Assembly (NCBI RefSeq): GCF_000708675.1
Contig: NZ_JELR01000002.1
Coordinates: 1,504,228-1,568,227 of the forward strand
DNA length: 64,000 nucleotides
Direction of reading: 5' to 3'
DNA from: Microbulbifer sp. HZ11
GTDB lineage: Bacteria > Pseudomonadota > Gammaproteobacteria > Pseudomonadales > Cellvibrionaceae
Positions within the stretch are counted from its first letter, which is position 1, and every line of letters starts with the position of its first letter. Below, in pieces: positions 10,125-55,173 of the stretch. Below the pieces are notes generated by a model. It did not search any database. It was not told where the DNA came from and saw only the letters and a program-made list of their open reading frames with translations. The position numbers and the translations under genes were made by a program.

Positions 10125-10310
10125 GGTCGAGTGCCGGGTAAGCGTTTTTGAAAGCGTCGGCGACAGGGATGTCGCCGACGCAGCGTACAGGGAAGTATTC
10201 ACAGCGGTTTAGCTGAGCACATCCCTGTGCTCAGCCCTACGGGCAGCTAAAGCTGCTGAAAATTGTTCCCGACAATTTTTTCAAAAACTTATACCCGGGG
10301 CTCGACCGCC
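10125..10310. repeat. Dispersed inverted-repeat element, copy A (phoB-phoR spacer)
   Basis: The outer arms are 10125-10153 and 10282-10310; 24 of 29 positions pair and both contain CCGGGTA. The interior carries three nested hairpins: GCGTCGGCGAC / GTCGCCGACGC, GCTGAGCA-CATCCCTG-TGCTCAGC, and a smaller one based on CAGC. It is the longest copy (about 186 bp). Confidence 0.85.
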
Positions 10311-10352
10311 ACAGGACCCGCTACGGAGCCCTCTACAATTCTTGGGTGTAGG

Positions 10353-11057
10353 TTACACCCTTTCCGCGGTCTGTACAGAAAAGCGGTAGCCGGTGCCGCG
10401 CACGGTCTGGATGTAGCGCTCGTGGCCATCGACGGTCAGGGCTTTGCGCAGGCGACGGATGTGAACATCCACGGTGCGCTCCTCAACATACACGTTGCCA
10501 CCCCAAACATGGTCCAGCAACTGGGTACGGGTGTAAGCGCGCTCCTGATGACTCAGGAAAAACGTCAGCAGGCGGAACTCGGTCGGGCCCATATCCACCG
10601 GATTGCCATTGATCGTCACCCGGTGGCTGATCGGATCCAGCACCAGGCCACCCGCCGTCAGCGGCTCCTCCGGCGTGCTCGGGCCCGCGCGGCGCAACAC
10701 CGCCTTCAGGCGCGCTACCAGCTCGCGGGGTGAAAACGGCTTGGTAATGTAATCGTCCGCACCGGTCTCCAGACCCTTGATCTTGTGGTCTTCCTCACCC
10801 TTAGCGGTAAGCATGATGATCGGCAGCGAAGAAGTCAGTTCATCCCGCTTCAGGCGGCGGGCCAGCTCAACACCGGAAACATCCGGCAGCATCCAGTCCA
10901 ACAGAATCAGATCCGGCTTTTCATCGATTACCAGCGCGTGGGCCGCCTGGGCATTTTCCGCCTCAAGACAACGGTAATCCGCCATTTCCAGAGCTACCCG
11001 TAACATATCCCGCACCGGGGCTTCGTCGTCGACTATGAGGATCGTCTTGCTGTGCAT
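10353..11057 (-). CDS. phoB: Phosphate regulon response regulator PhoB
   Basis: PhoB is the DNA-binding response regulator that activates the Pho regulon under phosphate limitation. The 234-residue protein has a receiver domain with the acidic pair at 10-12, phospho-acceptor Asp54 in ILLDWMLPD, and a KPFSPREL block. A winged-helix OmpR-type domain follows (about 135-228, with VRGTGYRF). The start ATG is preceded by a Pho box 75 bases upstream, so autoregulation is likely. phoR follows 298 bases downstream on the same strand. Confidence 0.97.
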   Translation of the reverse strand: MHSKTILIVDDEAPVRDMLRVALEMADYRCLEAENAQAAHALVIDEKPDLILLDWMLPDVSGVELARRLKRDELTSSLPIIMLTAKGEEDHKIKGLETGADDYITKPFSPRELVARLKAVLRRAGPSTPEEPLTAGGLVLDPISHRVTINGNPVDMGPTEFRLLTFFLSHQERAYTRTQLLDHVWGGNVYVEERTVDVHIRRLRKALTVDGHERYIQTVRGTGYRFSVQTAERV

Positions 11058-11131
11058 CTGCCTGCCATACCCTAACTGAAGTGATTGTCATTTAACTGAC
11101 TATTCTAGAGTGGCCATTTAACGTCACTTTA

Positions 11132-11149
11132 GTGACAAAAATATGACAG
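11132..11149 (-). promoter_or_regulatory. Pho box upstream of phoB
   Basis: On the minus strand the sequence reads CTGTCAT-ATTT-TTGTCAC: two 7-base CTGTCAT-like repeats with a 4-base AT spacer, the standard 18-bp Pho box. Ten bases downstream is TTAAAT, a plausible -10 element at the spacing expected when PhoB replaces the -35 contact. Confidence 0.85.
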
Positions 11150-11187
11150 CCGTACGGGAAGCCCGGTTTGCGGGTGGCCGCTTGCGC

Positions 11188-12087
11188 CTAATTCCACAGA
11201 TAATGAGAAAAAATACCCAGGAAAATTGCCATTCCGACCCAGTTGTTATTGAGAAATGCCTTGAAGCAGGGTTCCCGTTGCCGATCGCGAATCAGCCACT
11301 GCTGATAGCAAAATAGCCCGCCCGCCGCCGCAACCCCGCAGTAATACAGCGTACCGAGCTCCGCGCGCCCTCCCAGCATCAGTAAGGCCAGAATCACCAT
11401 GCCCTGCAGGCAGCCGGTCATCGCCCGGTCCATATCGCCGAACAGGATGGCTGTGGATTTCACCCCGATCTTCAGATCGTCGTCCCGGTCAACCATGGCA
11501 TAAAAGGTATCGTAGGCCACGGTCCACAGCAGGTTTGCGGTAAACAGCACCCAGGCTACCGCCGGCACCGCGTTGGTGACCGCGGCAAATGCCATAGGGA
11601 TTCCCATACTGAACGCCGCACCCAGTACCACCTGTGGCAAATGGGTGTAGCGTTTGGCGAAGGGATAGCAGAAGGCCAGCACCAGCGCCGGCAGTGACAG
11701 CAAAATGGTCAGTTTGTTGGTGGTGAGCACCAGCAGAAATGCCAGCAGCATCAGGCCGGCGAACAGCATCAGTGCGCCTTTTGGGGTAGCGGCGCCAGTG
11801 GCCAGGGGACGCTGGCTGGTGCGCTTTACGTGGCCGTCGATCTCGCGGTCGGCGAAGTCATTGATGGCACAGCCGGCGGCGCGGGTAAGAATTACACCCA
11901 GGGTAAACACCACAAACAGGTGCAGCCCCGGCCAGCCTTTGGCGGCAATCCACAGTGCGGCCCAGGTTGGCCACAGCAACAGCAGTGAGCCGATGGGCCT
12001 GTCCAGTCGCGCCAGTTGCCAGTAGGGCTGTACGCTGGGCCAGTGCTGCGCGAAGCGCTGCTGGACTTGTTGGCGAATGGCTTGCAT
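11188..12087 (-). CDS. ubiA: 4-hydroxybenzoate polyprenyltransferase UbiA
   Basis: UbiA attaches the polyprenyl tail to 4-hydroxybenzoate, the second committed step of ubiquinone synthesis, in the inner membrane. The 299-residue protein has multiple hydrophobic helices, the first prenyl-diphosphate/Mg motif NDFADREID (about 96-104) and the second [13 protein letters not shown] (about 190-205). It is 36 bases downstream of ubiC on the same strand, so the two successive enzymes are probably co-transcribed. phoB lies next on the same strand but has its own Pho-box promoter. Confidence 0.97.
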
Positions 12088-12123
12088 GGCAGTTCCCGTA
12101 TTCTTTCCTGTTTCTTCAGGGCA

Positions 12124-12699
12124 CTAGGTCATTGGCGGTTTGTGGGGATTGAACCCGCTGAGGAAGGTCTCTGCAACCAGCAGAGGTTTGTCGTGCAGCC
12201 AGAAGGTGGAGCGGCGGCCCCAGGCATGGGCTTCGCTCTGGTCCAGCTCTGCCAGCTGGCACTGGGAGTTGCGTTTGAGCCGGTTGAGGACGATGGGGCC
12301 GCGGCGGATGTCCGGCTGGCTGAACAGGAGCTCGCCCAGGGGGCGGTTGTCGAGGCTGCGCAGGTAGCGGGATTTCCCGGCGAGGGTACGCTCGGGGAGG
12401 ACGCTGCGGGCGTAGACCCAGGGCTGGGTGTCGCTGCCGTAGAGCAGGACTTCGCGGATCAGGGCGCGGGTGCGCTCCTTGAGGTTGAGGGCGCGGCGCT
12501 CTTCGAGGTTGGGTGTGTGCCAGCCCTGGCGCAGTATTTGTACGCTAAACTCGCCGTGGCTCAGGTGCTTGAGGGCGGCGGTGAGAGATCCTTTGTGTTG
12601 CAGCCAGGGCAGGAGGTGGTCCGGCGGGGTGTGGCCGTGCAGGCTTTCGAGGGGTTGTGGGTGCCAGTCGCCGATGGCCTCAAAGGGGGAGTGGTACAA
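12124..12699 (-). CDS. ubiC: Chorismate lyase UbiC
   Basis: UbiC splits chorismate into 4-hydroxybenzoate and pyruvate, the first step of ubiquinone synthesis. The 191-residue product is somewhat longer than the 165-residue E. coli enzyme. Family features include VREVLLYG-like text (here REVLLYGSD), the W-V-Y-A-R-S-V motif and the downstream LGELLF block with its conserved glutamate. It is first in a ubiC-ubiA unit. A copy of the dispersed repeat lies upstream, between this gene and the divergently transcribed symporter gene. Confidence 0.92.
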   Translation of the reverse strand: MYHSPFEAIGDWHPQPLESLHGHTPPDHLLPWLQHKGSLTAALKHLSHGEFSVQILRQGWHTPNLEERRALNLKERTRALIREVLLYGSDTQPWVYARSVLPERTLAGKSRYLRSLDNRPLGELLFSQPDIRRGPIVLNRLKRNSQCQLAELDQSEAHAWGRRSTFWLHDKPLLVAETFLSGFNPHKPPMT

Positions 12700-12851
12700 C
12701 GCAGACTCCGCGCGGGGTTATGCTGGTTTGAATTAACCGCATTGTACCTGACGAGGGTTTCAGGGGAACTCGCTTTGCCCCTTGGGGGTGGGGTGGATAT
12801 AGTGGCGCACTGCCTTTACCCAGATAAGAGGCTCTGAACAAACCCGGTGGC

Positions 12852-12978
12852 GGTGGCGCTACCGGGCACAGTCTTGTGAGACACGACCTAGGCGGCCCCC
12901 CGTGAATCCATCCATGGGGGCTCTGCAAAAACATCCTGTTTTTGAAGGTCTCACAAGACTGTACCCGGTATCACCACC
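12852..12978. repeat. Dispersed inverted-repeat element, copy B (ubiC/symporter divergent spacer)
   Basis: The arms are 12852-12883 and 12947-12978; 28 of 32 positions pair, including ACAGTCTTGTGAGAC. The interior has the AATCCATCCATGGGGGCTC block followed by an AAAAACA/TGTTTTT mini-hairpin. This copy occupies much of the 357-base gap between ubiC and the symporter gene, which otherwise shows nothing recognisable. Confidence 0.88.
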
Positions 12979-13056
12979 TTCGCCCGAATATAATTAGCGC
13001 TGAAAACGATCAGAAAATCTGCCATTTGAAAGGTAGATGCAAAAACAGGACGGACC

Positions 13057-14367
13057 ATGGGGCTTACCAAAAAAATCGTACTGGCCATGATCACGGGGAT
13101 CTTGCTTGGCCTGCTGTTCAATGTACTCAACTCCAGCCAGGTGTTGGGTACGACGGTTACCGGATTTATCAACAACTACCTCACCAATGGTCTGTTCGAC
13201 ATCATCGGGCGGATTTTCATTGCGTCGCTGAAGTTGATGGTGGTGCCGTTGGTGCTGGTGTCGCTGATCTGCGGTGCCTGCGCGCTGTCGGAGGGCAGTC
13301 GGGTTGGGGTGTTGGCAGGGAAGACCTTGCTGCTCTACCTGTGCACGACGGCGGTGGCCATTTCCCTGGCGCTGTTGCTGGCGTTGGTGATCCAGCCCGG
13401 GGTGGGCATGGAATACCTGGCGGGCGATGCGCAGTATGAGGCGAAGGAGTCGCCGCCTCTTTCCGATGTGCTGGTGAATATTTTTCCCACCAACCCGGTG
13501 CTGGCGATGGCAGAAGGCAACATGCTGCAGATCATCGTGTTTGCCCTGCTGCTGGGTTACGCGATTTCCCGCAGCGGCAAGCCGGGACAGCGGGTGGCGG
13601 CGTTCTTTAATGATCTGAACGAGGTCATCCTGAGGATGGTGGGTGTGCTGATGGTGTTTGCGCCTTACGGGGTGTTTGCGCTGTTGGTGAACAAGATTGC
13701 GCTGCTGGGTCTAGATGCCATTCCGACACTGGCGAAGTATTTTGGCGTGGTGCTGCTGGCGCTGCTGATTCACGCTTTTGGGGTATACCCGCTTTTGTTG
13801 AAGTTGCTGTCTGGTTTGAATCCAGTCAAGTTACTGAAGAAAATGCGCCCGGCGATGGCATTTGCATTCAGTACCGCGTCTTCTGCGGCGACGATTCCGG
13901 TTACCCTGCAGACGGTGGAAAAGCGTCTGGGTGTGGATAACAAGATTGCGTCATTCACTGTTCCGCTGGGGGCGACCATCAATATGGATGGCACAGCGAT
14001 CATGCAGGGTGTGGCGACGGTGTTTATCTCTCAGCTGTACGGCATCGAGATTGGCCTGATGGGTTACTTGACGGTAATCCTGACTGCGACGCTCGCATCT
14101 GTGGGTACTGCCGGTGTGCCGGGTGTTGGCCTGATCATGCTGGCGATGGTACTGAGTCAGGTGGGCCTGCCGGTGGAAGGCATTGCCATTGTGATGGGCG
14201 TGGATCGCCTGCTGGATATGGTGCGCACGGCGGTGAACATTACCGGTGACTCGGTGGTGAGCACCATTGTGGCCAACAGCGAGGGTGCACTGGATGTAAA
14301 TACGTTCAATGACGACAATTACAACAGCGTCGTGACAAACGGGGAAGGAAGCTCTTCTTCGGCCTGA
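13057..14367 (+). CDS. Dicarboxylate/amino acid:cation symporter (SDF/DAACS family)
   Basis: An inner-membrane Na+ or H+ coupled symporter for C4-dicarboxylates or acidic amino acids. The 436-residue protein has the eight-helix plus two-hairpin pattern of the family. The first re-entrant loop contains TASSAATIPVT. The unwound TM7 motif reads NMDGTA, and the C-terminal substrate site reads DRLLDMVRTAVNITGD; its R-T-A-x-N-I-T-G-D string is typical. I cannot decide between glutamate, aspartate and C4-dicarboxylates from sequence alone. It stands alone with an AGGA ribosome site and a strong terminator. Confidence 0.92.
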   Translation: MGLTKKIVLAMITGILLGLLFNVLNSSQVLGTTVTGFINNYLTNGLFDIIGRIFIASLKLMVVPLVLVSLICGACALSEGSRVGVLAGKTLLLYLCTTAVAISLALLLALVIQPGVGMEYLAGDAQYEAKESPPLSDVLVNIFPTNPVLAMAEGNMLQIIVFALLLGYAISRSGKPGQRVAAFFNDLNEVILRMVGVLMVFAPYGVFALLVNKIALLGLDAIPTLAKYFGVVLLALLIHAFGVYPLLLKLLSGLNPVKLLKKMRPAMAFAFSTASSAATIPVTLQTVEKRLGVDNKIASFTVPLGATINMDGTAIMQGVATVFISQLYGIEIGLMGYLTVILTATLASVGTAGVPGVGLIMLAMVLSQVGLPVEGIAIVMGVDRLLDMVRTAVNITGDSVVSTIVANSEGALDVNTFNDDNYNSVVTNGEGSSSSA

Positions 14368-14395
14368 TTTCTTTAAGTCAGTCGAGATAAATAGA

Positions 14396-14425
14396 GGGCG
14401 AGCCGCTGGTGCGGCTCGCCCTTTT
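14396..14425 (+). terminator. Terminator of the symporter gene
   Basis: GGGCGAGCCGC, loop TGGT, GCGGCTCGCCC, then TTTT. It is an 11-bp perfect stem 29 bases after the stop codon. Confidence 0.88.
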
Positions 14426-14444
14426 CAGTTCGGTCGGAGGGGGT

Positions 14445-15125
14445 CTAGAGTGCGGCCATATCCCGCAATTCATCCGCCTCGAGATTGTCCTCCATCGCCT
14501 CCACCAGCTCTTCAACCATTTCGGTGAGGGCTTCCTTGATGGCCGCTTCGGTGGTGTCTTCGCCGGCGCGATTGTCGTGATAGGTGCGCACCCGGTACTT
14601 CTCGGTGATTTTCATGTCGTCGATACTGACGCGCTGTTCGCGCAGTGCGGTTCCACTGCGATTGCTCAGGATGTAGCGGAATTCACCCTTCAGGGTCACA
14701 TTGCCCTGCTCAAGATCGTGATCGCCTTTCGGTTTCATGGCACTCAGGTGTTTGATCACCTTGAGGTTGAGTTTGTTCTGCAGCTGGAGCAGGCCATTTT
14801 CCGCAACCAGCGGTACCTCTTCATCCTCCAGATATCCGTACAGAACACGCGCCAGCTCGCTGTGGATATGCTGGGTGTAATTGCGGATGGCTTCTTTTTT
14901 CAGGTCCGCAAGACCGCCGCCATTGCCAGCCAGTGCAAGCATCAGCTGCATATCGCCACTGGATACCGGCATGGGTACATCGAGTTGAATTTCAGTGGCT
15001 GCTATGGCCAGGCTGGGGGTGTGGTCATCGCCACCCCAGAAGCTGTCTTGGGCACTGGTACTGGTGGATAGCGCAAGGCTAACCATACCGGCGGCGAATA
15101 GCCGACGGAGTCCTTGGGTTCTCAT
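14445..15125 (-). CDS. Secreted protein of unknown function, paralogue 1
   Basis: The 226-residue protein starts with a Sec signal peptide ending near STSAQD (residues 24-26). The mature N-terminus reads SFWGGDD, then a TEI-x-x-DVPMP block, a long helical middle part and a very acidic C-terminal helix (AMEDNLEADELRD). I do not recognise the family. It is a clear paralogue of the next gene upstream on the same strand: both share FxGGxD, A-x-TE-(I/V)-x-x-(D/E)VP-x-P, VIKHLS/VVKRLS-type text and LEADxLR near the end. The pair probably arose by tandem duplication followed by strong divergence. Confidence 0.7.
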   Translation of the reverse strand: MRTQGLRRLFAAGMVSLALSTSTSAQDSFWGGDDHTPSLAIAATEIQLDVPMPVSSGDMQLMLALAGNGGGLADLKKEAIRNYTQHIHSELARVLYGYLEDEEVPLVAENGLLQLQNKLNLKVIKHLSAMKPKGDHDLEQGNVTLKGEFRYILSNRSGTALREQRVSIDDMKITEKYRVRTYHDNRAGEDTTEAAIKEALTEMVEELVEAMEDNLEADELRDMAAL

Positions 15126-15399
15126 GCATCGCTCCCTGTTTTGATTTTTATACCGGGATAATTTTTATCGGCGCTGTTTGATGGGGCGCTCTGTGGCGGA
15201 TGAATCCGCTCTATCATTTTTAGACGTCTGTCACAGGCTGCCACTTATCGGTGCAGAGAGCAAAAAATTTCGGTGACTTGTGCGTCAGTAGTAGTCAGTT
15301 GTGTGAGGTGGGTCGCGGCGGGCAACGGGGGAGTGAATTAGCAGTGAGCTGTATGGGCAGTGCTGGAGGCGCCACCGGTGCGGTGACGCGAGAAAGTCG

Positions 15400-16110
15400 T
15401 CAGCTGCGGTGCTGCAGTTCGCGCAGAGCGTCGGCTTCCAGGTCGTCTTCGATGCGGTCGATGACGCGCTTAACCAGCTGGTCTGCCATCTGACGCAATT
15501 CTTCGGTGGTGTTGTCTTCCCCGGCATCGCCGCGTAGTGAGGTTTTGATCTGGTACTTACCCTTCAGGCGCAGATCGGCAATGTCGACACGTCTCTCCAC
15601 CAGCAACCGCTCCCCGGGTGCCTGCAGGCGCAGGTGGTAGTCACCACTGGCGCTCAGGCTGCCCCTTTCGATTTCGTAATCGCCACTGTTTTTCAGGCCG
15701 CTTAATCGCTTCACCACGGAAATATCGATGAAGTTGTACAGAATGAGCGAGTTGTTGTCGCTGTACAGAGGGATGTCTTCATCGGCGAAGAATTCGCGCA
15801 GGGCGCCATCCAGGCGGGCGCGTAGGTAGTCGGCGAACTCCCGGTTCGCGGTTTCTTTGGCCGCGCTCAGGGTGCCACTGTTGGTCGCCTGCGCGAGCAT
15901 GCTTTCAAAATCATTGCCAACCAGTGGGGTGGGTACCTCTGCGGCTACTTCGGTGCGGGCGAGGGTGAGGTGGGGGATAGGTTCGTCGCTACCGCCGAAA
16001 AAACCCTGCGCGTGTGTCGATGTGTGCATCAATGCGGCACCCAGCAGGACTGCAATGGCGCTGAGGCTGCGGCGGAGATTTAAGTGGCGTGGGCGGAGAA
16101 AACTGGTCAC
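15400..16110 (-). CDS. Secreted protein of unknown function, paralogue 2
   Basis: 236 residues with an Arg-rich N-terminus, a hydrophobic core and a cleavage site near THAQG (about residue 35), so it is exported. The mature protein starts GFFGGSDE and continues [13 protein letters not shown], matching its downstream neighbour block by block, and ends with [12 protein letters not shown] 274-base spacer without recognisable content separates the two genes. No catalytic motif is evident. The two could form a complex or respond to different conditions, but the sequence does not say. Confidence 0.7.
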
Positions 16111-24207: not shown

Positions 24208-24370
24208 AAATCTTCTGTTCCAGTGTGTAAGTTCGCCCGGCTGGGCAAAATTGACGAATTCTGTTGTCGGTGCGGTCAGCGCCTGCACAGACGGGGTTGA
24301 CTATTCTACCGGACCGCGCGGTGTACGCAAATCGAACAATGCTTAAAGGCGCAACACGGGTCGATGCGAA

Positions 24371-24541
24371 GGTGGCGATGCCGGGTATAGGGTTGTGAGA
24401 CGTTGATTCGCTTCGCTCACCCTGCGGGCGCCTTTGGCGTCCAAAGCGAACGCTTTGTCTGCGAGAGGGACCTCGCGGAAGAGCCCCCATGGATGGGTTC
24501 ACGGCGTGTCTCACAACCCTATACCCGGCAGCGTCACCGCC
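24371..24541. repeat. Dispersed inverted-repeat element, copy C (gmk-rpoZ spacer)
   Basis: The arms, 24371-24401 and 24508-24541, share 23 consecutive paired bases starting TGCCGGGTATAGGG. The interior holds the CCCCCATGGATGGGTTCACGG block in the orientation opposite to copies B and E, plus small hairpins such as GCGAG-AGGGA-CTCGC. It fills about half of the 353-base gap between gmk and rpoZ; the rest shows nothing recognisable. Confidence 0.85.
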
Positions 24542-24560
24542 ACGAAATCTGTTTAGAGCT

Positions 24561-28367: not shown

Positions 28368-30449
28368 TCAGGGAGCGGCTTCAGCCTGCAGGGTCACCCC
28401 GGAGTAGGCGCTGTACCCGCGGATACTGATGTACCAGGTACCCGCTTGCGGGTTACTGAGACTGCAGCTCTCGTCGTTGCCCCAGCGATAGGGGCGGCAA
28501 TCGTAGCTGCTGGTGGTGGGCTGGCTGCCATAACGCACGTACAGGTCACCATCGCCGCTTCCGCCACTCATCAGCACTTCCAGAGAGCTCATGCCACTGT
28601 TCACATCGAGGGTAAAGTGCTGCCAGGCATTCGCCGAACCGGCGACATTGGTCTCGGTCCAGCCGGTGGCGCCACCGCCACTACCGCCCTCATCAAAACT
28701 TCCCACCAGGCTGACACCGGAGAAGCTGCTATAGGCGCGCACCATCACGTGATAGGTACCGGCCTGCACATTGCTAATTGAGCAGGTTTCGTTGTTGCCA
28801 TTTTGGTAGGGGCGGCAATCGTAGCTGCCGGTAGTGGGCTGGCTGCCGTACTGGACGTACAGGTCGGCATCACCGCTGCCGCCGGAAATCTGGAAGCTCA
28901 GATTGCTGGCTCCAGCCGGGACTTCCAGAGTGAACCGTAGTTCCTGACCCGAGCTCGCGGAGAGACCGGTTTCGGCAACACCATTGGTCAGCTCGCCATC
29001 ACCAGGCTGCGGGTTACCACCGCCACCACCGTTGGCCGCGGCCACCGCGGCGGCTGCGTCGACAATACCGGTACCGCACTGACTGCAGGAGCCGGGGAAG
29101 CTACGCGCGGTGCTTTTGAGTATGGACTCTACCTCGTCCGGGGTGATACCTCCGTCCACCGCGTACAGCAGCGCCGCAGCGCCGGCCACGTGGGGAGCGG
29201 CCATGCTGGTGCCCTGATAGAAGGCGTAGTTATCGCTGCCCGGGCCCTGGGTGCCGCTGTTCAGGGTGGAAAGCACGCCGTTTGAACTCACCGAGGTTTC
29301 GCCCCCGGGCGCCGCCACATCCACCACGCTGCCGTAGTTGGAATAATAGGCGCGACTGCCGGCACGATTGGTGGAGGCTACGGTAATGACGCCATTACAG
29401 CTGGCCGGGCTGTAATTGCCGGCATTGGCGTTGGAGTTACCCGCGGCCACCACCACGGTGGTGCCGAGACTGCGCGCAGTGTTGATGGCATTTTGCGTGG
29501 TGGTGTCACAGCCACCGCCTCCGCCAAGGCTCAGGTTCAGCACCTGGGCCGGATTGGCGTTGGCAGGAACGCCGCTGACGTTGCCACCGGCACCCCAGAT
29601 AATGCCGTCGGCGATATCCGAGGTGTAACCACCACAACGGCCGAGTACACGGATAGGGACAATTTTGGATTTGTAGGCAACGCCCGCCACACCGCTGCCG
29701 TTGTTGGTCACCGCAGCAATGGTGCCCGCAACGTGGGTGCCGTGCCAGCTGCTATTGCGCGCCGGCTGCCCTGCGCCACAGGCACCCGCCGGTGACCAGT
29801 CGCCGGGATCGCTGGCGTCGCTGTCACGGCCGTTACCATCCTGAGCCACGGTGGTATCAGAGATCATGTCATAGCCGGGAAGGAGGTTGGCATTGAGGTC
29901 CGCGTGTGGGCGATAGCCGGTATCGATGACCCCCACTACAACACCCTCGCCCTGTGTCACGTCCCATGCCGCTGGCAGATTCAGGCCACCGGTAGCTTCA
30001 AAGTAATGCCACTGCTGGTTGTAATAGCTGTCGTTGGGGGTGGCCATAGGTTGCATCAAGCGATCGGGCTCCGCGTACTCCACCTGCGGGTCCTGCTGCA
30101 GGCGCGCAATGATTGCGTCAAGTTCCGCTTTGCTTGCGCGCTTTTCCAATTTCATCAACTGCGCACCGGTGGCCAGGCGACGCATATGTTTAAAGCGATG
30201 ACCGGCGGTTTGCGCAACTCGATCGATGGCTGTCTGTGACATCGCCGTCGCATTGGCTCCTGCCATGGTGCTTTTGTACTTAACAATAATGCGATCGGTA
30301 ATCACCTCGTCTGCTGCCACCGACATGGCAGAGAGCTCAGGTTCGACCGCGTGGGCTGAAAAACTTGCACCGAAACTGGCGCTCAGCAGAAGCGTTGCGG
30401 CGCCGAAAATAGCACCGGGGGAAGGTTTCAATAACGCTGATAATTTCAT
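28368..30449 (-). CDS. Secreted S8 subtilisin-like serine protease with two PPC domains
   Basis: 693 residues from the ATG at 30449 (GGAG upstream). The order is a signal peptide (1-34), an inhibitor I9-type propeptide (about 45-130), the peptidase S8 domain (about 140-450) and two C-terminal PPC domains (about 470-590 and 600-693). The catalytic triad is Asp176, His236 and Ser415 with oxyanion Asn338, all in canonical context (VIDTG, HGTHVAG, GTSMAAP). The catalytic domain carries several cysteines. Each PPC domain has a GSGDxDLYVxYGSQPT block and a CRPY...C disulfide pair. It is probably an extracellular protease for nutrition, and PPC domains are commonly removed during maturation. An alternative ATG lies six codons upstream. 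Confidence 0.93.
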   Translation of the reverse strand: MKLSALLKPSPGAIFGAATLLLSASFGASFSAHAVEPELSAMSVAADEVITDRIIVKYKSTMAGANATAMSQTAIDRVAQTAGHRFKHMRRLATGAQLMKLEKRASKAELDAIIARLQQDPQVEYAEPDRLMQPMATPNDSYYNQQWHYFEATGGLNLPAAWDVTQGEGVVVGVIDTGYRPHADLNANLLPGYDMISDTTVAQDGNGRDSDASDPGDWSPAGACGAGQPARNSSWHGTHVAGTIAAVTNNGSGVAGVAYKSKIVPIRVLGRCGGYTSDIADGIIWGAGGNVSGVPANANPAQVLNLSLGGGGGCDTTTQNAINTARSLGTTVVVAAGNSNANAGNYSPASCNGVITVASTNRAGSRAYYSNYGSVVDVAAPGGETSVSSNGVLSTLNSGTQGPGSDNYAFYQGTSMAAPHVAGAAALLYAVDGGITPDEVESILKSTARSFPGSCSQCGTGIVDAAAAVAAANGGGGGNPQPGDGELTNGVAETGLSASSGQELRFTLEVPAGASNLSFQISGGSGDADLYVQYGSQPTTGSYDCRPYQNGNNETCSISNVQAGTYHVMVRAYSSFSGVSLVGSFDEGGSGGGATGWTETNVAGSANAWQHFTLDVNSGMSSLEVLMSGGSGDGDLYVRYGSQPTTSSYDCRPYRWGNDESCSLSNPQAGTWYISIRGYSAYSGVTLQAEAAP

Positions 30450-43726: not shown

Positions 43727-43759
43727 CTCCCTCTATATAAGGGACTTCGTAGTCACCGC

Positions 43760-43815
43760 CGTGGCGGCGAAGCGCCAGGTGTGGGTTTTCGAAATCGCTG
43801 TGAACCCACCCCTGT
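43760..43815. repeat. Partial copy H of the dispersed inverted-repeat element
   Basis: GGCGGCGAAGCGCCAGGTGTGG, then GTTTTCGAAATCGCTGTG and AACCCACCCCTG, align with the left arm and centre of copy F, but no matching right arm follows. It looks like a decayed half element in the 359-base gap between radC and rpmB. Confidence 0.55.
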
Positions 43816-43937
43816 CACTCCGCCTTCCCTCCAGGGCGATGGCGCTACGTAGCCGGGGTGCGATTCCCTGAATTGTGGCGGGATTGACGCCTCCGACCCA
43901 AAGTGGCTGCTCAGGCAGCAAAAAAGCTGGTCAAAAC

Positions 43938-44559: not shown

Positions 44560-44592
44560 GTGTCTGTCGATCAGACGAAAGCCAGACGCGAA

Positions 44593-44719
44593 GGCTTCGA
44601 TGCCGGTAGCCCTTTGCCAGACCTTCAAAAACAGGATGTTTTTGCAGAGCCCCCATGGATGGGTTGAGGGGGGGCGCCTAGCCCGTGTCTGGCAAAGGGC
44701 TACCGGTAGCGGAGCCGCC
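44593..44719. repeat. Dispersed inverted-repeat element, copy D (rpmG-mutM spacer)
   Basis: The arms, 44593-44622 and 44687-44719, share 20 consecutive paired bases (CCGGTAGCCC, then TTTGCCAGAC). The centre has CCCCCATGGATGGGTT and an AAAACAGGATGTTTT mini-hairpin, in reverse orientation to copy B. mutM starts 37 bases further on. Confidence 0.85.
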
Positions 44720-44755
44720 ACCAAGTCAAATACGTGGCTACCCGGAACCCAAACA

Positions 44756-48592: not shown

Positions 48593-49132
<540 letters not shown>

Positions 49133-49180
49133 TCAAAAAGTCCGGGGAAAATCTGCCAAACCCGGGTGAATGCTCGGGAT

Positions 49181-49774
49181 TCACACCCGAAATAGCCGCA
49201 TACAAACCTGCCCTGCCTGCTTTTCCTTTTCCAGTTGCCAGCTTGCCGGTGCGGAAACATGGGTATCCCGGGGGGACTCTACGTAGATCAGTGTGCCTTC
49301 GCCGATACAGCCGGCCTCCACCAGGCCTGAAAAAGTGGATGTCCACAGGTCGTTGGCAAAGGGAGGGTCGACAAAGACCACGTCAAATGCTGTGTTGGAC
49401 TGACTCAGATACACTTGGGCGGGGCAGTTGTGCACCTGTGCACCTTCCGCTTCCAGCAGATCGAGCTGCTGTCGCAGTATCTGCGCGGCCCCCCTGTCCA
49501 GCTCCACAAAATCGAGCCGTGCGGCGCCGCGGCTCAGGGCCTCCAGGCCCAGCGCGCCGGAGCCCGCAAACAGGTCCAGGCAGCGGGCCCCTGGCAGGTG
49601 AAACTGCAGCCAGTTGAACAGTGTCTCGCGCAGGCGGTCGCCGGTGGGGCGCAGTCCTTCAATGGGGGCAAAGGTCACTTTGCGCCCGCGCCAGCGGCCG
49701 CCGATGATACGCAACTGCGATGCTGCCGACGGGCGAGCACTGTCGTTAGGTCGGGGGCGGCGGTTTCTGGGCAT
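49181..49774 (-). CDS. rsmD: 16S rRNA (guanine(966)-N2)-methyltransferase RsmD
   Basis: RsmD methylates G966 of 16S rRNA. The 197-residue protein has the N-terminal RIIGGRWRGRK, the SAM motif LDLFAGSGALGLEALSRG, and the catalytic DPPF. It is divergent from ftsY and is followed by coaD after 108 bases, as in gammaproteobacteria generally. A GC-rich hairpin overlaps its end (49163-49189). Confidence 0.97.
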   Translation of the reverse strand: MPRNRRPRPNDSARPSAASQLRIIGGRWRGRKVTFAPIEGLRPTGDRLRETLFNWLQFHLPGARCLDLFAGSGALGLEALSRGAARLDFVELDRGAAQILRQQLDLLEAEGAQVHNCPAQVYLSQSNTAFDVVFVDPPFANDLWTSTFSGLVEAGCIGEGTLIYVESPRDTHVSAPASWQLEKEKQAGQVCMRLFRV

Positions 49775-49922
49775 TGGCGGTCCGGAAAAATCGTTACAGC
49801 GGCAAATAGGGACGGGCTACTGTGTGCGAAACAGTCAGCGGTGCTAAGATTAGCGCCTTTCCAGGGCCGGCTGCCAGCCGGTATTTGCCAGTCACCCTTT
49901 TCCTTCGAAGAATCCACACCCG

Positions 49923-51212
49923 ATGATTTTTGATTTTCTGCGCAAGAAGAAGCCCGAGGACCAGCCCGCTGAGGAGGCTGCCTCCTCGACAGAGGTTCAG
50001 AACCCGCTGCTCGATGAAGCGGATGAGTTTGAGATTCCGGAGAACCTGAAGGCCGAGCCCGCGGAACAAGCGAGAGCTGAAGAGGCGCGCGAGGAAGTGG
50101 GGCAGGAGACGGGTGATGACGCGGTAGCAGAGACGCTCTCGGCAGAAGAAGCACCGGAATCCGGATTTGATCCGCTGGCGGAGGTGGAAGTTACTCCTGC
50201 GCCGGAGGCACCGGTTGCTGCCACGCCGGAAGCGCCAGCCGCAGTGGCTCCAGTTCCCGCGAAAGAGCAGGAAAAACCCAAAAAAGAGGGCTTTTTCGCC
50301 CGCATCCGCCGCGGCCTGTCCCGCACCAGCAGCCAGTTTGCCGAGGGCATGGGCAATCTGTTCCTGGGCGCCAAGGAGATCGATGAAGATCTGATGGAGG
50401 AACTGGAGACCCAGCTGCTGATGGCGGATGTGGGTGTAGATGCCACCACCGAGATCATTGATCGCCTGACCGAGCGAGTTTCCCGCCGTGAGCTGTCCAA
50501 TGGCGAGGCGCTGTACAAGGCGCTGCAGGAAGAACTGGCGGGGCTCTTGGACAAGGTGGAGGCGCCGCTGGCCATCGATCAGGCAAAGAAGCCGTTTGTG
50601 ATCCTGGTGGTGGGTGTGAACGGTGTGGGCAAGACGACGACGATCGGCAAGCTGGCGCACCGCTTCCTGAATGAGGGCAAGTCGGTGATGCTGGCGGCCG
50701 GTGATACTTTCCGCGCAGCTGCGGTGGAGCAGCTGCAGGTATGGGGTCAGCGCCACAATGTGCCGGTGGTGGCCCAGCATACGGGTGCCGATAGCGCCTC
50801 TGTCATCTTTGATGCGATACAGTCTGCGCAGTCCCGGGGTGTGGATGTGGTGATTGCGGATACCGCGGGTCGCCTGCACAACAAGTCCAATCTGATGGAG
50901 GAGTTGTCGAAGGTGCGCCGGGTGATGGGCAAGCTGGACGGTTCGGCGCCCCACGAGGTGTTGCTGGTGCTGGATGCGGGGACCGGGCAGAACGCGCTGT
51001 CCCAGGCGGAGACCTTCAAGGATTCTGCGGGGGTTTCCGGTCTGGTGCTGACTAAGCTTGATGGTACGGCCAAGGGCGGGGTGATTTTCGCGCTGGCGCA
51101 GAAGCTGGGGATTCCGGTACGCTTTATTGGCGTCGGGGAGCAGGCAGAGGACTTGCAGCCGTTTGTGGCCAAGGACTTTGTAGCGGCGCTGTTTAATCGC
51201 GCTCAGGGGTGA
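49923..51212 (+). CDS. ftsY: Signal recognition particle receptor FtsY
   Basis: FtsY is the membrane-associated GTPase that docks SRP-ribosome complexes. The 429-residue protein has an acidic, Glu/Ala-rich N-terminal A domain (about 12-115) and the NG domain from about 130, with G1 GVNGVGKTTT, DTAGR and TKLDGTAKGG. An extended -10 (TG-C-TAAGAT, 49842-49850) lies 70 bases upstream and may be its promoter. In most relatives ftsE follows almost directly; here a repeat copy lies between them. Confidence 0.97.
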   Translation: MIFDFLRKKKPEDQPAEEAASSTEVQNPLLDEADEFEIPENLKAEPAEQARAEEAREEVGQETGDDAVAETLSAEEAPESGFDPLAEVEVTPAPEAPVAATPEAPAAVAPVPAKEQEKPKKEGFFARIRRGLSRTSSQFAEGMGNLFLGAKEIDEDLMEELETQLLMADVGVDATTEIIDRLTERVSRRELSNGEALYKALQEELAGLLDKVEAPLAIDQAKKPFVILVVGVNGVGKTTTIGKLAHRFLNEGKSVMLAAGDTFRAAAVEQLQVWGQRHNVPVVAQHTGADSASVIFDAIQSAQSRGVDVVIADTAGRLHNKSNLMEELSKVRRVMGKLDGSAPHEVLLVLDAGTGQNALSQAETFKDSAGVSGLVLTKLDGTAKGGVIFALAQKLGIPVRFIGVGEQAEDLQPFVAKDFVAALFNRAQG

Positions 51213-51250
51213 TTTTTTAGGGTTCGTGGCTCTTTCTCGGAGAGTTTGAT

Positions 51251-51367
51251 GGCGGCGCTGCTACCGGGTAAAGCTTTCTGAGACACGCCGTGAACCCATC
51301 CATGGGGGCTCTGCAAAAACATCCTGTTTTTGAAGGTCTCAGAAAGCTTTACCCGATATCAGCGCCT
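51251..51367. repeat. Dispersed inverted-repeat element, copy E (ftsY-ftsE spacer)
   Basis: The arms, 51251-51284 and 51335-51367, share 20 consecutive paired bases starting CGGGTAAAGC. The centre AACCCATCCATGGGGGCTC and the following AAAAACATCCTGTTTTT are nearly identical to copy B in the same orientation. Confidence 0.88.
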
Positions 51368-51436
51368 GCGCGCATAGCTCTGTGAATTCTGTGGCTATGT
51401 GCGACTGCTTAATCAAAAAACAACAAAAATGCGCTC

Positions 51437-52120
51437 ATGATCCAGTTTGATAACGTCAATAAACGCTACGAATCCGGCCAGGATGCCCTGGGGCGTGTCA
51501 GCCTGGAGATCGATCGCGCGGAGATGGTGTTTCTCACCGGTCATTCAGGTGCCGGCAAAAGTACCCTGCTGAAACTTCTCACCGCCATCGAGCGCCCTAC
51601 CCGCGGCAGCATCATTGTTGGCGGCCAGAACCTGAACCGGCTGCGCAACGGTCAGATTCCCTACTATCGCCGCAATCTCGGCATCGTATTCCAGAACCAC
51701 CAATTGCTGTTTGATCGCAGTGTGTTTGACAACGTGGCGCTGCCCCTTTCCGTGTCTGGTTGTAGCAAGCGCGAGGTGGGCCGGCGGGTGCGGGCGGCGT
51801 TGGACAAGGTGGGGCTGCTGCACAAGGAGAAGCAGAATCCGATTGTGCTCTCCGGCGGTGAGCAGCAGCGCGTGGGGATTGCGCGGGCGGTGGTGAACAA
51901 GCCGGCGCTGCTGGTGGCGGATGAGCCGACCGGTAACCTGGACCCGCAGCTGTCGGAGGAGATCATGGGGCTGTTCCGACAGTTCAATGCGGTGGGCACG
52001 ACGGTGCTGATTGCGAGCCACGATCTGGAGCTGATTGCGCGCATGCGCCAGCGGGTGCTGACCCTGCAGCAGGGCCAATTGATCTACGACGGATACCCGA
52101 GCCGTGAACCAGCGTATTAA
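51437..52120 (+). CDS. ftsE: Cell division ATP-binding protein FtsE
   Basis: FtsE is the ATPase that with FtsX drives septal peptidoglycan hydrolases during division. The 227-residue protein has Walker A GHSGAGKST, LSGGEQQR and DEPTGNLDP. Its start lies 224 bases after ftsY, with a repeat element between. It overlaps ftsX by 17 bases, indicating coupled translation. Confidence 0.98.
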   Translation: MIQFDNVNKRYESGQDALGRVSLEIDRAEMVFLTGHSGAGKSTLLKLLTAIERPTRGSIIVGGQNLNRLRNGQIPYYRRNLGIVFQNHQLLFDRSVFDNVALPLSVSGCSKREVGRRVRAALDKVGLLHKEKQNPIVLSGGEQQRVGIARAVVNKPALLVADEPTGNLDPQLSEEIMGLFRQFNAVGTTVLIASHDLELIARMRQRVLTLQQGQLIYDGYPSREPAY

Positions 52121-53117
52121 ACCTTCACCCGCAAGAACCCAACCGCAAGCCCCCGAACGCGCCCGCTCTACCGGCGCGGTAACCGCGCGCACCGGTATGG
52201 GTGACAGATTCGGCAGCTGGCTGGGTCATCACCGGGAGATGTGGCGGGAGTCCTGGGTGCGTTTTTTTGCCTCGCCCATGTCCAGCGGTATGACGGCGCT
52301 GGTGATTGCCATTGCGCTGGCGCTACCGGCGGCACTGCAGTTGGGACTTACCAACTTCCAGAAGGCGGTGGCCGGCTGGGATGGACAGCCGCAGATCTCG
52401 GTTTTTCTGCACAAGCGCGCCAAGGAGAGTGCAGTAACGTCTTTTGCCGACAATCTGCGCGGTGATCCGCTGGTAGCCGAGGTGACGTATATTTCCCCTG
52501 AGCAGGCGCTGGCGGAGTTTCAACAGTCGTCTGGTCTCGGTGATGCGTTGATTGGCATGGACAGCAATCCGCTGCCGGCGGTGTTGCTGGTGCGGCCGCG
52601 GGGTTCTGATAGCGCGTCCCTCGAATTCCTGGCGGAGCGATTGCGCGCGAGTGCGCTGACCGACTCGGTGGTGCTGGATATGGCCTGGGTACAGCGGCTG
52701 GCGAATCTGACCGAATTGGGTCGCCGCATGAGTCTGGGGCTGGCATTTCTGCTGGCGCTGGGAGTTCTGCTGGTGGTGGTGAACAGTATCCGTCTGCATA
52801 TCGAGAACCGCCGGGACGAGATTCTGGTGGTGAAGCTGGTGGGGGCGACGGATGCCTTCGTGCGCCGGCCCTTCCTGTACACGGGGCTGGTGTACGGTCT
52901 TGTCGGTGGGCTGATTGCCTGGCTGCTGGTGAGCCTCGGGGTCTGGTTGCTGGCGGGGCCGGTGAGGGGGCTGGCGAACCTCTACGGCAGTGGATTCCGC
53001 CTCGGTGGACCCGGTTTCACCTACCTGGCGGGCCTGGCCGGTGGCGCGGCTCTGTTAGGTCTGACCGGCGCCTGGCTGGCGGTGGCGCGGCATATTTCGG
53101 CGATTCAGCCCCGTTGA
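52104..53117 (+). CDS. ftsX: Cell division protein FtsX
   Basis: FtsX is the membrane partner of FtsE. The 337-residue protein has a cytoplasmic N-terminus (about 1-55), one helix, a periplasmic loop (about 95-205), then three C-terminal helices, the classical layout. It starts at a GTG inside ftsE. No terminator is visible downstream; 410 bases separate it from rpoH. Confidence 0.95.
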   Translation: MNQRIKPSPARTQPQAPERARSTGAVTARTGMGDRFGSWLGHHREMWRESWVRFFASPMSSGMTALVIAIALALPAALQLGLTNFQKAVAGWDGQPQISVFLHKRAKESAVTSFADNLRGDPLVAEVTYISPEQALAEFQQSSGLGDALIGMDSNPLPAVLLVRPRGSDSASLEFLAERLRASALTDSVVLDMAWVQRLANLTELGRRMSLGLAFLLALGVLLVVVNSIRLHIENRRDEILVVKLVGATDAFVRRPFLYTGLVYGLVGGLIAWLLVSLGVWLLAGPVRGLANLYGSGFRLGGPGFTYLAGLAGGAALLGLTGAWLAVARHISAIQPR

Positions 53118-53125
53118 GTCCAATT

Positions 53126-53154
53126 GGTGGATGCGCTGCGCTTATCTACCCTAC
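53126..53154. repeat. REP-like palindrome (GGTGGATGCGCT type) downstream of ftsX
   Basis: GGTGGAT followed by GCGCTGCGCTT and ATCTACC forms a short imperfect palindrome, and CTAC follows. This sequence type is a widespread gammaproteobacterial intergenic repeat. A second GGTGGATGCG is at about 53182-53191. Confidence 0.55.
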
Positions 53155-53247
53155 TAGACCGCCCGGCCCGCTCGGTTGAGTCGGTGGATGCGGAAAGCCT
53201 GCCAGAAGTTGTTCTGACCACACGGTCAGTCAAGAATCGTAAAGCGT

Positions 53248-53276
53248 GGAACTTCCCCTGTGGATAACCGCTCTAA
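53248..53276 (+). promoter_or_regulatory. Predicted sigma-E promoter of rpoH, with an internal DnaA box
   Basis: GGAACTT at 53248-53254, 17 bases, then TCTAA at 53272-53276: the consensus for extracytoplasmic stress sigma factor RpoE. Inside the spacer TGTGGATAA (53259-53267) is a perfect DnaA box (complement of TTATCCACA). The E. coli rpoH promoter region also has a sigma-E promoter and DnaA boxes. Confidence 0.7.
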
Positions 53277-53527
53277 TCACCCGGAAATCAAGGGCTGGCG
53301 CGGTTTACCGGCCTTCTGCATACGGGGTTCCATTTCCCGTTGCGGGTGCTACACTGTGGCCAACTTTGCTCTCCCGGTGCCGCTTAAAAACTGACCGCAA
53401 TCCACAAGAAGGTGCAGTCGGTTCAGGGCCGGAACAGGCAAGCCGCCGCAAACTACTGGTCTTGGTAGGAAAGAGTCCAAGCAGCAAGTGCCAAGCGGGG
53501 CAACAAGAGTTACGAGGAGAATCCTGA

Positions 53528-54382
53528 ATGGGAACCAGCTTACAGCCGATTCATACACTGTCACCGGGCGCGAACCTGAACGCCTACATTCAGACGGTCA
53601 GCGGCTTCGAGGTACTCTCCGCCGAAGAAGAAAAGAAACTCGCGGAAGATCTCTATTATCACCAGAATCTCGAGGCGGCCCGCCAACTGGTGATGTCTCA
53701 CCTGCGCTTTGTGGTGCATATCGCCAAATCCTACTCCGGCTACGGCCTGAATCAGGGTGACCTGATTCAGGAAGGTAACGTGGGTCTGATGAAGGCGGTG
53801 AAGCGCTTCAACCCGGAAAAGGGTGTGCGTCTGGTGTCCTTTGCGGTGCACTGGATCAAGGCGGAGATTCACGAGTTCATCCTGCGCAACTGGCGCATCG
53901 TCAAGATCGCGACCACCAAGGCGCAGCGCAAGCTGTTCTTCAATCTGCGTGGCCAGAAGAAGAAGCTGGCGTGGCTGACTAACGATGAAGCCAAGCGCGT
54001 TGCCGCTGAGCTGAATGTGGATGTGCAGCATGTACACGATATGGAAGGTCGCCTGGCGGCCCACGATGCGGCCTTCGATGCCGGCGTGGACGACGACGAA
54101 GATTCCGCGTGGCAGGCGCCGGCCCATTACCTGGAAGACCGCCGTTACGATCCGGCGACCATGCTGGAAAACGATAACTGGCAGGAAACCAGTGTAAACA
54201 ACCTGACTGCCGCGATGGAGCAGCTGGACGATCGCAGCCGCGATATTATCGAGGCGCGCTGGTTGAGCGAGTCCAAGGCGACGTTGCACGAGCTGGCCGA
54301 CAAATACGGTGTTTCTGCTGAGCGAATCCGCCAGCTTGAAAAAAACGCCATGAAAAAGGTCCGGGTGGCGATGGAGGCCTGA
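53528..54382 (+). CDS. rpoH: RNA polymerase heat-shock sigma factor RpoH (sigma-32)
   Basis: The 284-residue sigma factor has region 2 ([36 protein letters not shown]), the RpoH box QRKLFFNLR that is specific to sigma-32, and the region 4 recognition helix with [17 protein letters not shown]. An AGGAG ribosome site precedes the ATG. It follows ftsX as in E. coli. Upstream is a likely sigma-E promoter with a DnaA box. Confidence 0.98.
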
Positions 54383-54408
54383 TAGCCTTCTCACTGACCG
54401 GATTCAAG

Positions 54409-54433
54409 AACCGCGCTACTGGCGCGGTTTTTT
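54409..54433 (+). terminator. Terminator of rpoH
   Basis: AACCGCGC, loop TACTG, GCGCGGTT, then TTTT. It is 27 bases after the stop codon. Confidence 0.88.
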
Positions 54434-54484
54434 CGTATCTGGCTCTTGGTTCCGTGGTATTTGCTTTGAAGCCGGTTTGGTGGC

Positions 54485-54596
54485 GGTGAGGCACCGGGTA
54501 TTTGTTTTCGGAACCGCTGTGAATACATCCCTGTACGCTGCGTCGGCGACGTCCCTGTCGCCGACGCTTCCGAAAACAAATACCCGGTACCTCACC
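54485..54596. repeat. Dispersed inverted-repeat element, copy F (rpoH-DUF423 spacer)
   Basis: The arms, 54485-54513 and 54568-54596, are 28/29 paired. The interior holds GCGTCGGCGAC-GTCCCTG-TCGCCGACGC as a perfect hairpin. It lies downstream of the rpoH terminator. Confidence 0.9.
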
Positions 54597-54644
54597 TTAG
54601 ATTTTGACTGCTGATCTTCGTAAGCCAGTTAGAAAGGAATAACG

Positions 54645-55022
54645 ATGGCTAAATTGTATTTACTGCTCGCCGCATTTTTTGGCGGCACCGGAGTTGTTCT
54701 CGGTGCTTTTGGCGCCCATGGCTTGCGCGACAAAGTCGCAGAGAACCTTCTGGAAGCCTATAAAACCGGTGTGCACTATCAGATGACTCACGCCCTGGCC
54801 CTGATTGCCGTGGCGGTATTGATTCATCAGATCGGCGCAAAAACCTCGCTGATTGTAAGTGGCGCCCTGTTTGCTATCGGGATCCTGTTTTTCTCCGGTA
54901 GCCTTTATGGCCTGACCTTCGGTGGCCCCAGAATCTTGGGTCCCATCACCCCGCTGGGCGGCACCCTGCTGATCGGCGGCTGGATAGCACTGTTTATCGC
55001 CGCACTCGGCTATACAAAGTAG
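54645..55022 (+). CDS. DUF423 family membrane protein (YgdD-like)
   Basis: 125 residues with four hydrophobic helices and the family signature GAFGAHGL near residue 20-27. Function unknown; relatives are sometimes reported near stress loci. It lies between two copies of the inverted-repeat element, which bracket it at 54485-54596 and 55061-55173. A GAAAGGA ribosome site precedes the ATG. Confidence 0.9.
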   Translation: MAKLYLLLAAFFGGTGVVLGAFGAHGLRDKVAENLLEAYKTGVHYQMTHALALIAVAVLIHQIGAKTSLIVSGALFAIGILFFSGSLYGLTFGGPRILGPITPLGGTLLIGGWIALFIAALGYTK

Positions 55023-55060
55023 GCGCTGGCAACTACGAAGCAAAAAACTACGAATCGCAG

Positions 55061-55173
55061 GGCAAGCACCGGGTATAAGTTTTCAGAAGCGTCGGCGACA
55101 GGACGTCGCCGCCGCAACGCCCATGGATGGGTTCACAGTGGTTCTGAAAACTTATACCCGGTGCTTGGCCGCC
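55061..55173. repeat. Dispersed inverted-repeat element, copy G (DUF423-trmB spacer)
   Basis: The arms, 55061-55088 and 55142-55173, share 26 consecutive paired bases starting CAAGCACCGGGTAT. The interior contains GCGTCGGCGAC / GTCGCCGCCGC and then CCCATGGATGGGTTCAC, so it combines the two centre types seen in the other copies. Confidence 0.9.

Follow-up and report, generated by a model that had tools for sequence, protein, structure and literature searches.

The stretch analysed here, referred to as the window, comprises 64,000 nucleotides of the genome of Microbulbifer sp. HZ11 (contig NZ_JELR01000002.1, positions 1,504,228 to 1,568,227) and lies 74-138 kb away from dnaA (G000:C2:1430479) in an assembly of 7 contigs. 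Scattered between its genes are members of a family of inverted repeats. A preliminary description, made from the letters alone, had named eight places with seven full copies and one half copy, and all eight carry the repeat. The strand stated for each copy is the one that reads CATCC/GTGAA; the opposite one, with GGA in its hairpin loops, is called the GGA strand. Matches were scored with a covariance model, R1, trained on 25 copies, 5 of these from the window. The copies at 24371, 10125 and 43760 are absent from the training set, and the scores of these three are therefore independent.

Repeat copies in the window and their architecture

A type-A copy lies between ftsY and ftsE at 51251-51367 (+; R1 match 51242-51378, E 1.6e-36). 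Its left outer arm (51254-51284, +) is the partner of its right outer arm (51336-51366, +), and the two enclose hairpin 1 at 51295-51306 (+; CCCATCCATGGG, which reads CCCAUGGAUGGG on the opposite strand, assigned by sequence and loop type) and hairpin 2 at 51314-51332 (+; CAAAAACATCCTGTTTTTG, assigned by sequence, fold and loop type). Downstream of rpoH, a type-B copy occupies 54485-54596 (+; R1 match 54473-54608, E 2.7e-35), with hairpin 1 (TACATCCCTGTA) at 54524-54535 (+) and hairpin 2 (GCGTCGGCGACGTCCCTGTCGCCGACGC, assigned by sequence and fold) at 54540-54567 (+); positions 54525-54536 read GUACAGGGAUGU on the GGA strand. A second type-B copy, inverted relative to the first, follows 0.5 kb beyond at 55061-55173 (-; R1 match 55048-55182, E 1.9e-31), and the small gene before it is PRK10873-like, with a score under that model's cut-off. 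Two further type-A copies are found at 44593-44719 (-; R1 match 44581-44728, E 4.7e-33) and at 12852-12978 (+; R1 match 12840-12990, E 1e-31), the latter with the alternative linker CTAGGCGGCCCCCC. The copies at 44593, 51251, 54485 and 55061 all have orthologues in the related genomes G001, G002 and G008. The half copy at 43754-43836 (+; R1 match, E 4e-6) is apparently the remnant of a full one: the corresponding gap holds an R1 element in G008 (104.9 bits) and in G002 (119.3 bits), and none in G001.

Two copies are enlarged. The type-B copy between phoB and phoR (10125-10310, -, with the GGA strand on +; R1 match 10113-10319, E 5.8e-22) and the type-A copy adjoining the guanylate kinase gene (24371-24541, -; R1 match 24359-24550, E 2.6e-24) contain extra large hairpins, as do copies at L015:3118-3369, L021:14349-14564 and L027:2922-3150. 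The additions are placed between hairpin 2 and the arm, or in hairpin 1, with units such as GCGAAGCA-TGCTTCGC and GATTCGCTTCGCTCACCC.

Each copy is a three-way junction in which an outer stem of ~30 bp closes two small hairpins, and a canonical copy measures about 105-127 nt between its arm ends. The order on the CATCC/GTGAA strand is an arm of ~29-31 nt, a linker, hairpin 1, GCTC or CGCT, hairpin 2 and the other arm. The linker is (A)CGCCGTGAA or CCGCTGTGAA, replaced in some copies by the CTAGGCGCCCCCC form; hairpin 1 is CCCATCCNTGGG or TACATCCCTGTA, and hairpin 2 consists of one of several stems with a TCC loop. Two subtypes are distinguished by the arm ends, GAGAC in type A and TTTTC-GGA in type B. 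In some copies a further hairpin unit of ~35 nt (CCGGCCGC...GCGGCGCC...GGCC) replaces the TCC loop, forming a repeat nested within a repeat (L178:14439-14589, L174:9067-9213 and L029:19738-19892).

The outer arms of about 30 bp given in the preliminary description agree with the span of the arm pairing, about 29-31 nt. The eight arm bases it called variable do differ among copies; what it had not recognised is that they are complementary inside each copy. Since the arms differ among copies yet pair within each of them, this segment is best understood as a stem with free sequence and fixed pairing. Across 25 copies, 30 of the 38 pairs show changes on both sides, with a covariation score of 0.706 versus 0.202 after shuffling, and standard pairs fill 97.3% of pair cells versus 71.1% in shuffled arms and 38-45% when the partners are slid by 1-3 columns. 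The same description missed the two subtypes, the presence of GGA in both loops on one strand, the covariation of the stem and the persistence of copies at orthologous gaps. It was right that none of the copies encodes a convincing protein: this is a high-copy non-coding inverted-repeat family akin to ERIC, REP and miniature inverted-repeat transposable elements (MITEs), and not a gene.

Copy number, persistence and spread of the family

The eight places are not the only ones in the genome. R1 matches 147 of 150 scored candidates, which come from 1779 first-look candidates, so that 147 is a lower bound. An exact 24-letter core pattern occurs 62 times, and its reversed control not at all. The window holds 8 places per 64 kb, compared with a genome minimum of one per ~29 kb. 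Within 464 kb of the genome, the ATCC-TG loop motif of the family is present in 32 of 37 long inverted repeats; its occurrence in the inverted repeat at L022 is probably due to chance. R1 matches were obtained in 22 of 29 genomes, the window's own counted, with copy numbers within the genus ranging from 0 to at least 147.

Copies are frequently found at the same place in related genomes. For 43 copies we searched for the orthologous gaps in G001, G002 and G008; of the 57 gaps located, 39 contain the element and 18 do not, and the orientation is the same in 38 of the 39. A copy is common to G000, G001, G002 and G008 at ftsY-ftsE, at both sites that follow rpoH and at 44.6 kb. The adjoining intergenic DNA at these four-genome sites has in parts diverged past alignment and is in parts still alignable, and the arms, those of the 44593 copy included, differ through paired changes. 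Out-of-register comparisons were left out, and 21 of 31 orthologue comparisons were kept. Their 658 pair positions contain 55 paired Watson-Crick changes (33 transitions and 22 transversions); one-sided changes comprise 31 G.U, 0 A.C and 10 others, and the two-sided remainder amounts to 8. The share of transversions among the double changes suggests an excess over a purely wobble-mediated path. Hairpin 2 and the linker are swapped between orthologous copies while the arms remain related, and in the G001 copy after rpoH the two arms do not match each other. The paired arm changes at orthologous sites suggest that pairing is restored in place, and the swapped modules together with the copy with mismatched arms point to an exchange of cores between copies.

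The genus copies lie mostly in co-directional or converging gaps, with no preferred orientation. Of 62 classifiable copies, 51 are in co-directional and 4 in diverging gaps, as against 310 and 109 among 467 background gaps with a length of 100 nt or more; 12 further copies, outside the 62, fall within a called open reading frame (ORF) or at an edge. A larger genus set is distributed over the gap types as 44 (++), 49 (--), 34 (+-) and 7 (-+), the last being the divergent gaps (7/134). The median distance from the stop codon is 51 nt (93 co-directional cases). Copies are oriented like the genes in 25 cases and opposite to them in 26, and in the larger set in 44 and 49. Inverted pairs might have hidden an orientation bias; this idea was rejected, as single copies alone, for which the A/B typing is crude, are also balanced (28/34). 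Neighbouring copies tend to be inverted with respect to each other. In G018, all 23 neighbours spaced closer than 600 bp are inverted (20 plus-minus, 3 minus-plus), as are all 18 close pairs in G002 (14 plus-minus, 4 minus-plus). These counts follow the removal of opposite-strand repeats of the same place, which leaves 120 of 142 matches in G018, where one weak match was also dropped, and 112 of 139 in G002.

Copies cluster towards the origin of replication in three of four complete relatives. With the origin placed by dnaA positions, and in G018 also by GC skew, the eighths from origin to terminus hold 32, 26, 15, 17, 14, 12, 2 and 2 copies in G018 (Kolmogorov-Smirnov, KS, p 1.6e-8) and 20, 32, 15, 13, 7, 15, 5 and 5 in G002 (KS p 2.5e-6), pairs being unthinned in both. 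The distribution in G008, for which the exact pattern only was used, is 6, 11, 2, 0, 0, 0, 2 and 1. The trend in G015 is weak (p 0.058).

The same architecture recurs across many gammaproteobacterial genera, which is new here. The core pattern was recovered in at least 118 stretches of a public genome collection, and no match to it was found in viral contigs. Titles were available for 80 of the listed stretches; those that name a taxon are gammaproteobacterial, and one says only Proteobacteria. The named taxa, all of which we take to be gammaproteobacteria, include Microbulbifer, Stenotrophomonas, Xanthomonas, Halomonas, Marinobacter, Shewanella, Moritella, Sodalis and Methylomicrobium. Among the matches listed, hairpin 2, which lies outside the search pattern, is recognisable in 91 of 116, and a long outer stem is present in 79 of the 91, with an arm identity between loci of 36%. 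When 25 listed records were folded, 5 of them (L235, L246, L280, L284 and L296) had a best fold other than the full junction, as judged by eye. Orientation in this wider set is again balanced among the matches listed (18 sense, 19 antisense). Diverging gaps are not rare in it, at 13 of 69 among the matches listed; these gap calls come from a rough ORF caller, which assigned 31 of 123 matches to the interior of an ORF call and a further 23 to an edge.

Relation to described repeats and RNAs

Papers are cited here by their PubMed Central (PMC) identifiers, in all cases from excerpts. The inner core of the repeat corresponds to that of YPAL/RU-2, a repeat of Yersinia, and a match to a characterised family, which the preliminary description had left as a possibility, holds for this core and not for the rest of the element, since only the core aligns. 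With the RU-2 letters taken from Table 1b of PMC2759123, 60 of 177 elements aligned on the GGA strand beat the best of 40 letter shuffles, compared with 0 of 177 on the other strand. The best local alignment spans only RU-2 positions 60-116, extending in a Sodalis copy from about RU-2 position 52 to the RU-2 end. The shared GGA-strand core consists of a hairpin with an AAGGA loop, CGAGCC, UACAUGGAUGUA and UUUACGGCG, set within a long stem, and both repeats are intergenic and of high copy number. Folded as a single sequence, RU-2 forms two GGA hairpins in a long outer stem and a third small hairpin.

YPAL measures ~168 bp and has end sequences of its own (PMC2229807), compared with ~105-127 nt here and a core alignment only. 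Target duplications of 3-26 bp are reported for it in the same source; none was seen here by eye, in flanks that have diverged. The presence or absence of a YPAL-type element at the same gap in relatives also holds here, as the 39 filled gaps among 57 illustrate, with the direction of change unsettled and some gaps holding remnants. Mobility and a possible influence on the stability of upstream transcripts are ascribed to YPAL (PMC2229807), which occurs in 2-144 copies per Yersinia genome and in 3 in E. coli (PMC2847712). In the open-access literature, as far as these excerpts go, no paper describes the family beyond Yersinia, Erwinia and the three E. coli matches tabulated in PMC2847712. Judged from their sequences, the repeats of the window are a new and much wider variant of the YPAL-type miniature interspersed repeats.

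A comparison with Rfam returned no match in the window at curated cut-offs. One model, which has the same core, comes close: against RF02770 (Ysr224; cut-off 70 bits) the Sodalis copy scores 82.9, the best of 8 genus loci, a copy from the window's genome, 44.9 and the Stenotrophomonas copy 44.7. Ysr224 is modelled on the CATCC strand, opposite to the GGA strand, and is filed as a small RNA (sRNA) gene and not as a repeat family. It is one of the 20 annotated sRNAs with the highest prevalence in bacteria (PMC9029176); through this prevalence in Rfam annotation, part of the spread of the family may already be implied in print. The TwoAYGGAY RNA (PMC2864571) was not among the Rfam matches of the tested copies, with the presence of its model in the library unchecked. 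An unrelated match to a cobalamin riboswitch lies at L229:5438-5667 of a Stenotrophomonas record.

REPINs and the REP-RAYT system resemble the family in their high copy number, intergenic position, balanced orientation and many inverted pairs. They differ in that REP is a hairpin of 20-40 bp (PMC3733652), as opposed to a three-way junction of more than 100 nt that does not lie beside the Y1 genes searched. RAYT was accordingly rejected as a mobiliser: 11 Y1 loci have no adjoining element, and by eye the number of Y1 genes does not track that of the elements. A classical MITE moved by a DDE transposase was also rejected, as the terminal inverted repeats are not conserved among copies and the arms vary yet pair within each copy. 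ERIC elements, set beside the family by description only, are likewise high-copy palindromic intergenic repeats (PMC2229807).

Strand constraint and its possible explanations

Mismatches in the outer stem are strongly asymmetric between the strands. Alignable arms were obtained for 126 copies from the window's genome and related genomes, elements shorter than 115 nt, or whose arms paired poorly (7), being left out. Their CATCC strands contain 146 A.C, 9 G.T and 139 other mismatches, and the 146 correspond to G.U/G.T on the GGA strand. Some columns carry fixed mismatches (2, 23 and 24 in type B, 20-23 in type A); they were chosen for exclusion after inspection of the column counts, and the asymmetry is larger without the exclusion. 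With these columns out, the GGA strand has 20 G.U, 1 A.C and 15 other mismatches in copies oriented like the genes, and 21, 1 and 23 in copies of opposite orientation. The remaining copies, with 14 G.U, 5 A.C and 15 other, are not significant alone (p 0.064); since the copies share descent, binomial values should be read as approximate. R1 was built on the CATCC strand as RNA, so that its own bias would oppose the excess observed. In the wider set of at least 118 stretches the corresponding counts are 69 G.U, 19 A.C and 79 other.

As the bias towards G.U is equal in both gene orientations, the constraint acts on one named strand, independently of local transcription. It is chiefly for this reason that a role within the flanking mRNA is disfavoured: the fold of one strand is maintained, though not as part of the local mRNA.

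The explanation we favour, tentatively and with less than even confidence, is that the repeat is mobile and acts as folded single-stranded DNA. The working form would be the GGA strand alone, folded while single-stranded and recognised by a putative strand-transfer enzyme. During repeated unwinding and refolding, the arms would be corrected against each other and cores traded between copies. Such cycles would leave paired changes, a one-strand bias and swaps of hairpin-2 modules even if individual copies had no role of their own, and a folded single-stranded substrate would explain the orientation independence, the inverted pairs, the core exchange and the arm correction.

Several observations weigh against folded single-stranded DNA as the working form. 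No mobilising enzyme was found. Y1 (RAYT-type) genes occur in both element-rich and element-poor genomes and were not found in the element-rich G012, and no R1 element lies within 1.5 kb of the 11 Y1 loci searched (two of which overlap). By eye, and in flanks that have diverged, neither a clear duplication of the target site nor a cleanly empty site is seen, and at least 2 of the 'empty' gaps resemble remnants. Neighbouring copies are direct in two cases, three copies at L080 (another genome) and two copies 0.6 kb apart at L049, and no replication-strand bias is seen (59/53 in G002, 65/55 in G018). At old sites the loops and linkers are conserved, which selection acting on individual copies would explain as well as mobility does, or better. 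Finally, a DNA role leaves the ANGGAN loops unexplained.

These loops are the basis of the strongest competing explanation, docking of the RNA-binding protein CsrA/RsmA, which we consider possible but doubtful. In the transcribed GGA strand, a rigid stem would carry two ANGGAN hairpins at a spacing of 23-24 nt, these would hold one CsrA dimer, and many copies would act jointly as a dispersed sponge or as local tethers. At least two GGA loops are present on this strand in 132 of 142 canonical copies, with a GGA-GGA spacing of 23 or 24 nt in 127 of the 130 that have exactly two. The commonest loops, AGGGAU, AUGGAU and AGGGAC, are of the ANGGAN type, the hexaloop bound by RsmE, and the consensus obtained for CsrA by systematic evolution of ligands by exponential enrichment (SELEX) is RUACARGGAUGU (PMC7652899). 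Taken with the adjoining G as GUACAGGGAUGU, hairpin 1 of type B, for instance in the copy at 54485, agrees with that consensus at 12 of 12 positions. GGA stands in the hairpin-2 loop in 89 of 91 cases, compared with 14% by chance, across 70 different stems among the matches listed in the wider set, and G.U is tolerated on the same strand that carries the loops. csrA was found by search in 28 of 29 genomes, the exception being G018, where masked DNA (met beside csrA in G008) limits the negative. Copies of Ysr224 are reported to be transcribed in Y. ruckeri (PMC12112432).

CsrA docking would thus explain the loops and the wobble tolerance, but it requires that the GGA strand be transcribed whatever the orientation of the neighbouring genes. 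With balanced orientation this strand is antisense to the operon in about half of the copies, in which the constraint is equal. There is no promoter-like box at a fixed distance 5' of the GGA strand, and promoters belonging to the repeats were rejected on this ground, although the 5' side is slightly richer in AT (0.51-0.59, versus 0.42-0.50 over most of the 3' side). The Ysr224 model reads the CATCC strand, and many stems are far longer than the 4 pairs or fewer of most SELEX ligands. The repeats share ANGGAN hairpin loops and the consensus match with CsrB/RsmZ-type RNAs and other CsrA ligands, and differ from them as dispersed single modules with no evident promoter, set in either orientation to the genes. 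The resemblance of the GGA hairpins to CsrA ligands may be one of convergence. No open-access paper linking CsrA to YPAL or to palindromic repeats was found.

Genomes with several csrA genes are element-poor, which also speaks against docking, though clade explains at least part of it. Between 5 and 19 csrA genes accompany few elements in G003 (1), G004 (1), G006 (70, weak), G009 (3), G010 (5) and G014 (12), and most element-rich genomes have a single csrA. Exceptions to this trend are G007 (0 elements) and G011 (3), each with one csrA, and several one-csrA genomes of other families with 0. FtsY is 71-74% identical to the window protein in G003, G004, G006, G009 and G010 (G014 being outside the comparison), and given these identities the trend is due at least in part to clade.

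A broader form of CsrA docking, somewhat more doubtful still, would be a dispersed CsrA-binding system throughout the gammaproteobacteria, with more than 100 bivalent GGA-hairpin modules per genome spread by mobility, kept in shape by selection and serving as a CsrA buffer or as docking points. If this were true, YPAL and Ysr224 of Yersinia would be its known tip.

A cis-acting mRNA element, co-transcribed with the upstream gene and stabilising or processing the mRNA through its hairpin, as proposed for YPAL, seems unlikely to us. The copies do follow closely after stop codons, divergent gaps are few in the genus (7/134, and 4/62 against 109/467 in the background), and the suggested influence of YPAL on upstream transcript stability (PMC2229807) would be of this kind. 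Where the CATCC strand is the mRNA strand, though, the transition-type mismatches are 20 A.C versus 1 G.U, the reverse of what such an element predicts, and the mismatch test thus disfavours a sense mRNA element for about half of the copies; the wider set, moreover, is not poor in divergent gaps. Least probable, and in our view very unlikely, are domesticated DNA sites for chromosome organisation, bound near the origin as cruciforms: the origin-proximal excess in G018, G002 and G008 would be accommodated, but a cruciform exposes both strands equally and does not itself give a one-strand G.U bias, the trend in G015 is weak, and the gradient may only mirror conserved gene order near the origin.

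One architecture thus joins a Yersinia repeat, an abundant and little-explained Rfam sRNA entry and many gammaproteobacterial genera. The strand-specific constraint frames a testable choice between a folded DNA substrate of an enzyme and an RNA that holds CsrA, and either answer would help to explain how intergenic repeats persist at fixed gaps, beyond models of mobile elements alone.

Other repeats were encountered along the way. A second inverted-repeat family, of the CTGGA-CCGG type with the end GATGACG, is unrelated to the main one and occurs at L023:12736-12796 and L025:9952-10033. At L012/L009 (G000:C1:112133-113274), one Y1 transposase gene is present in two adjacent copies, the one truncated and the other full-length, with the 5' flank repeated. 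In the window, a direct repeat of 177 nt with 73% identity (28389-28565 and 28707-28883) lies within a subtilisin-like protease gene that matches a mycosin model under its cut-off.

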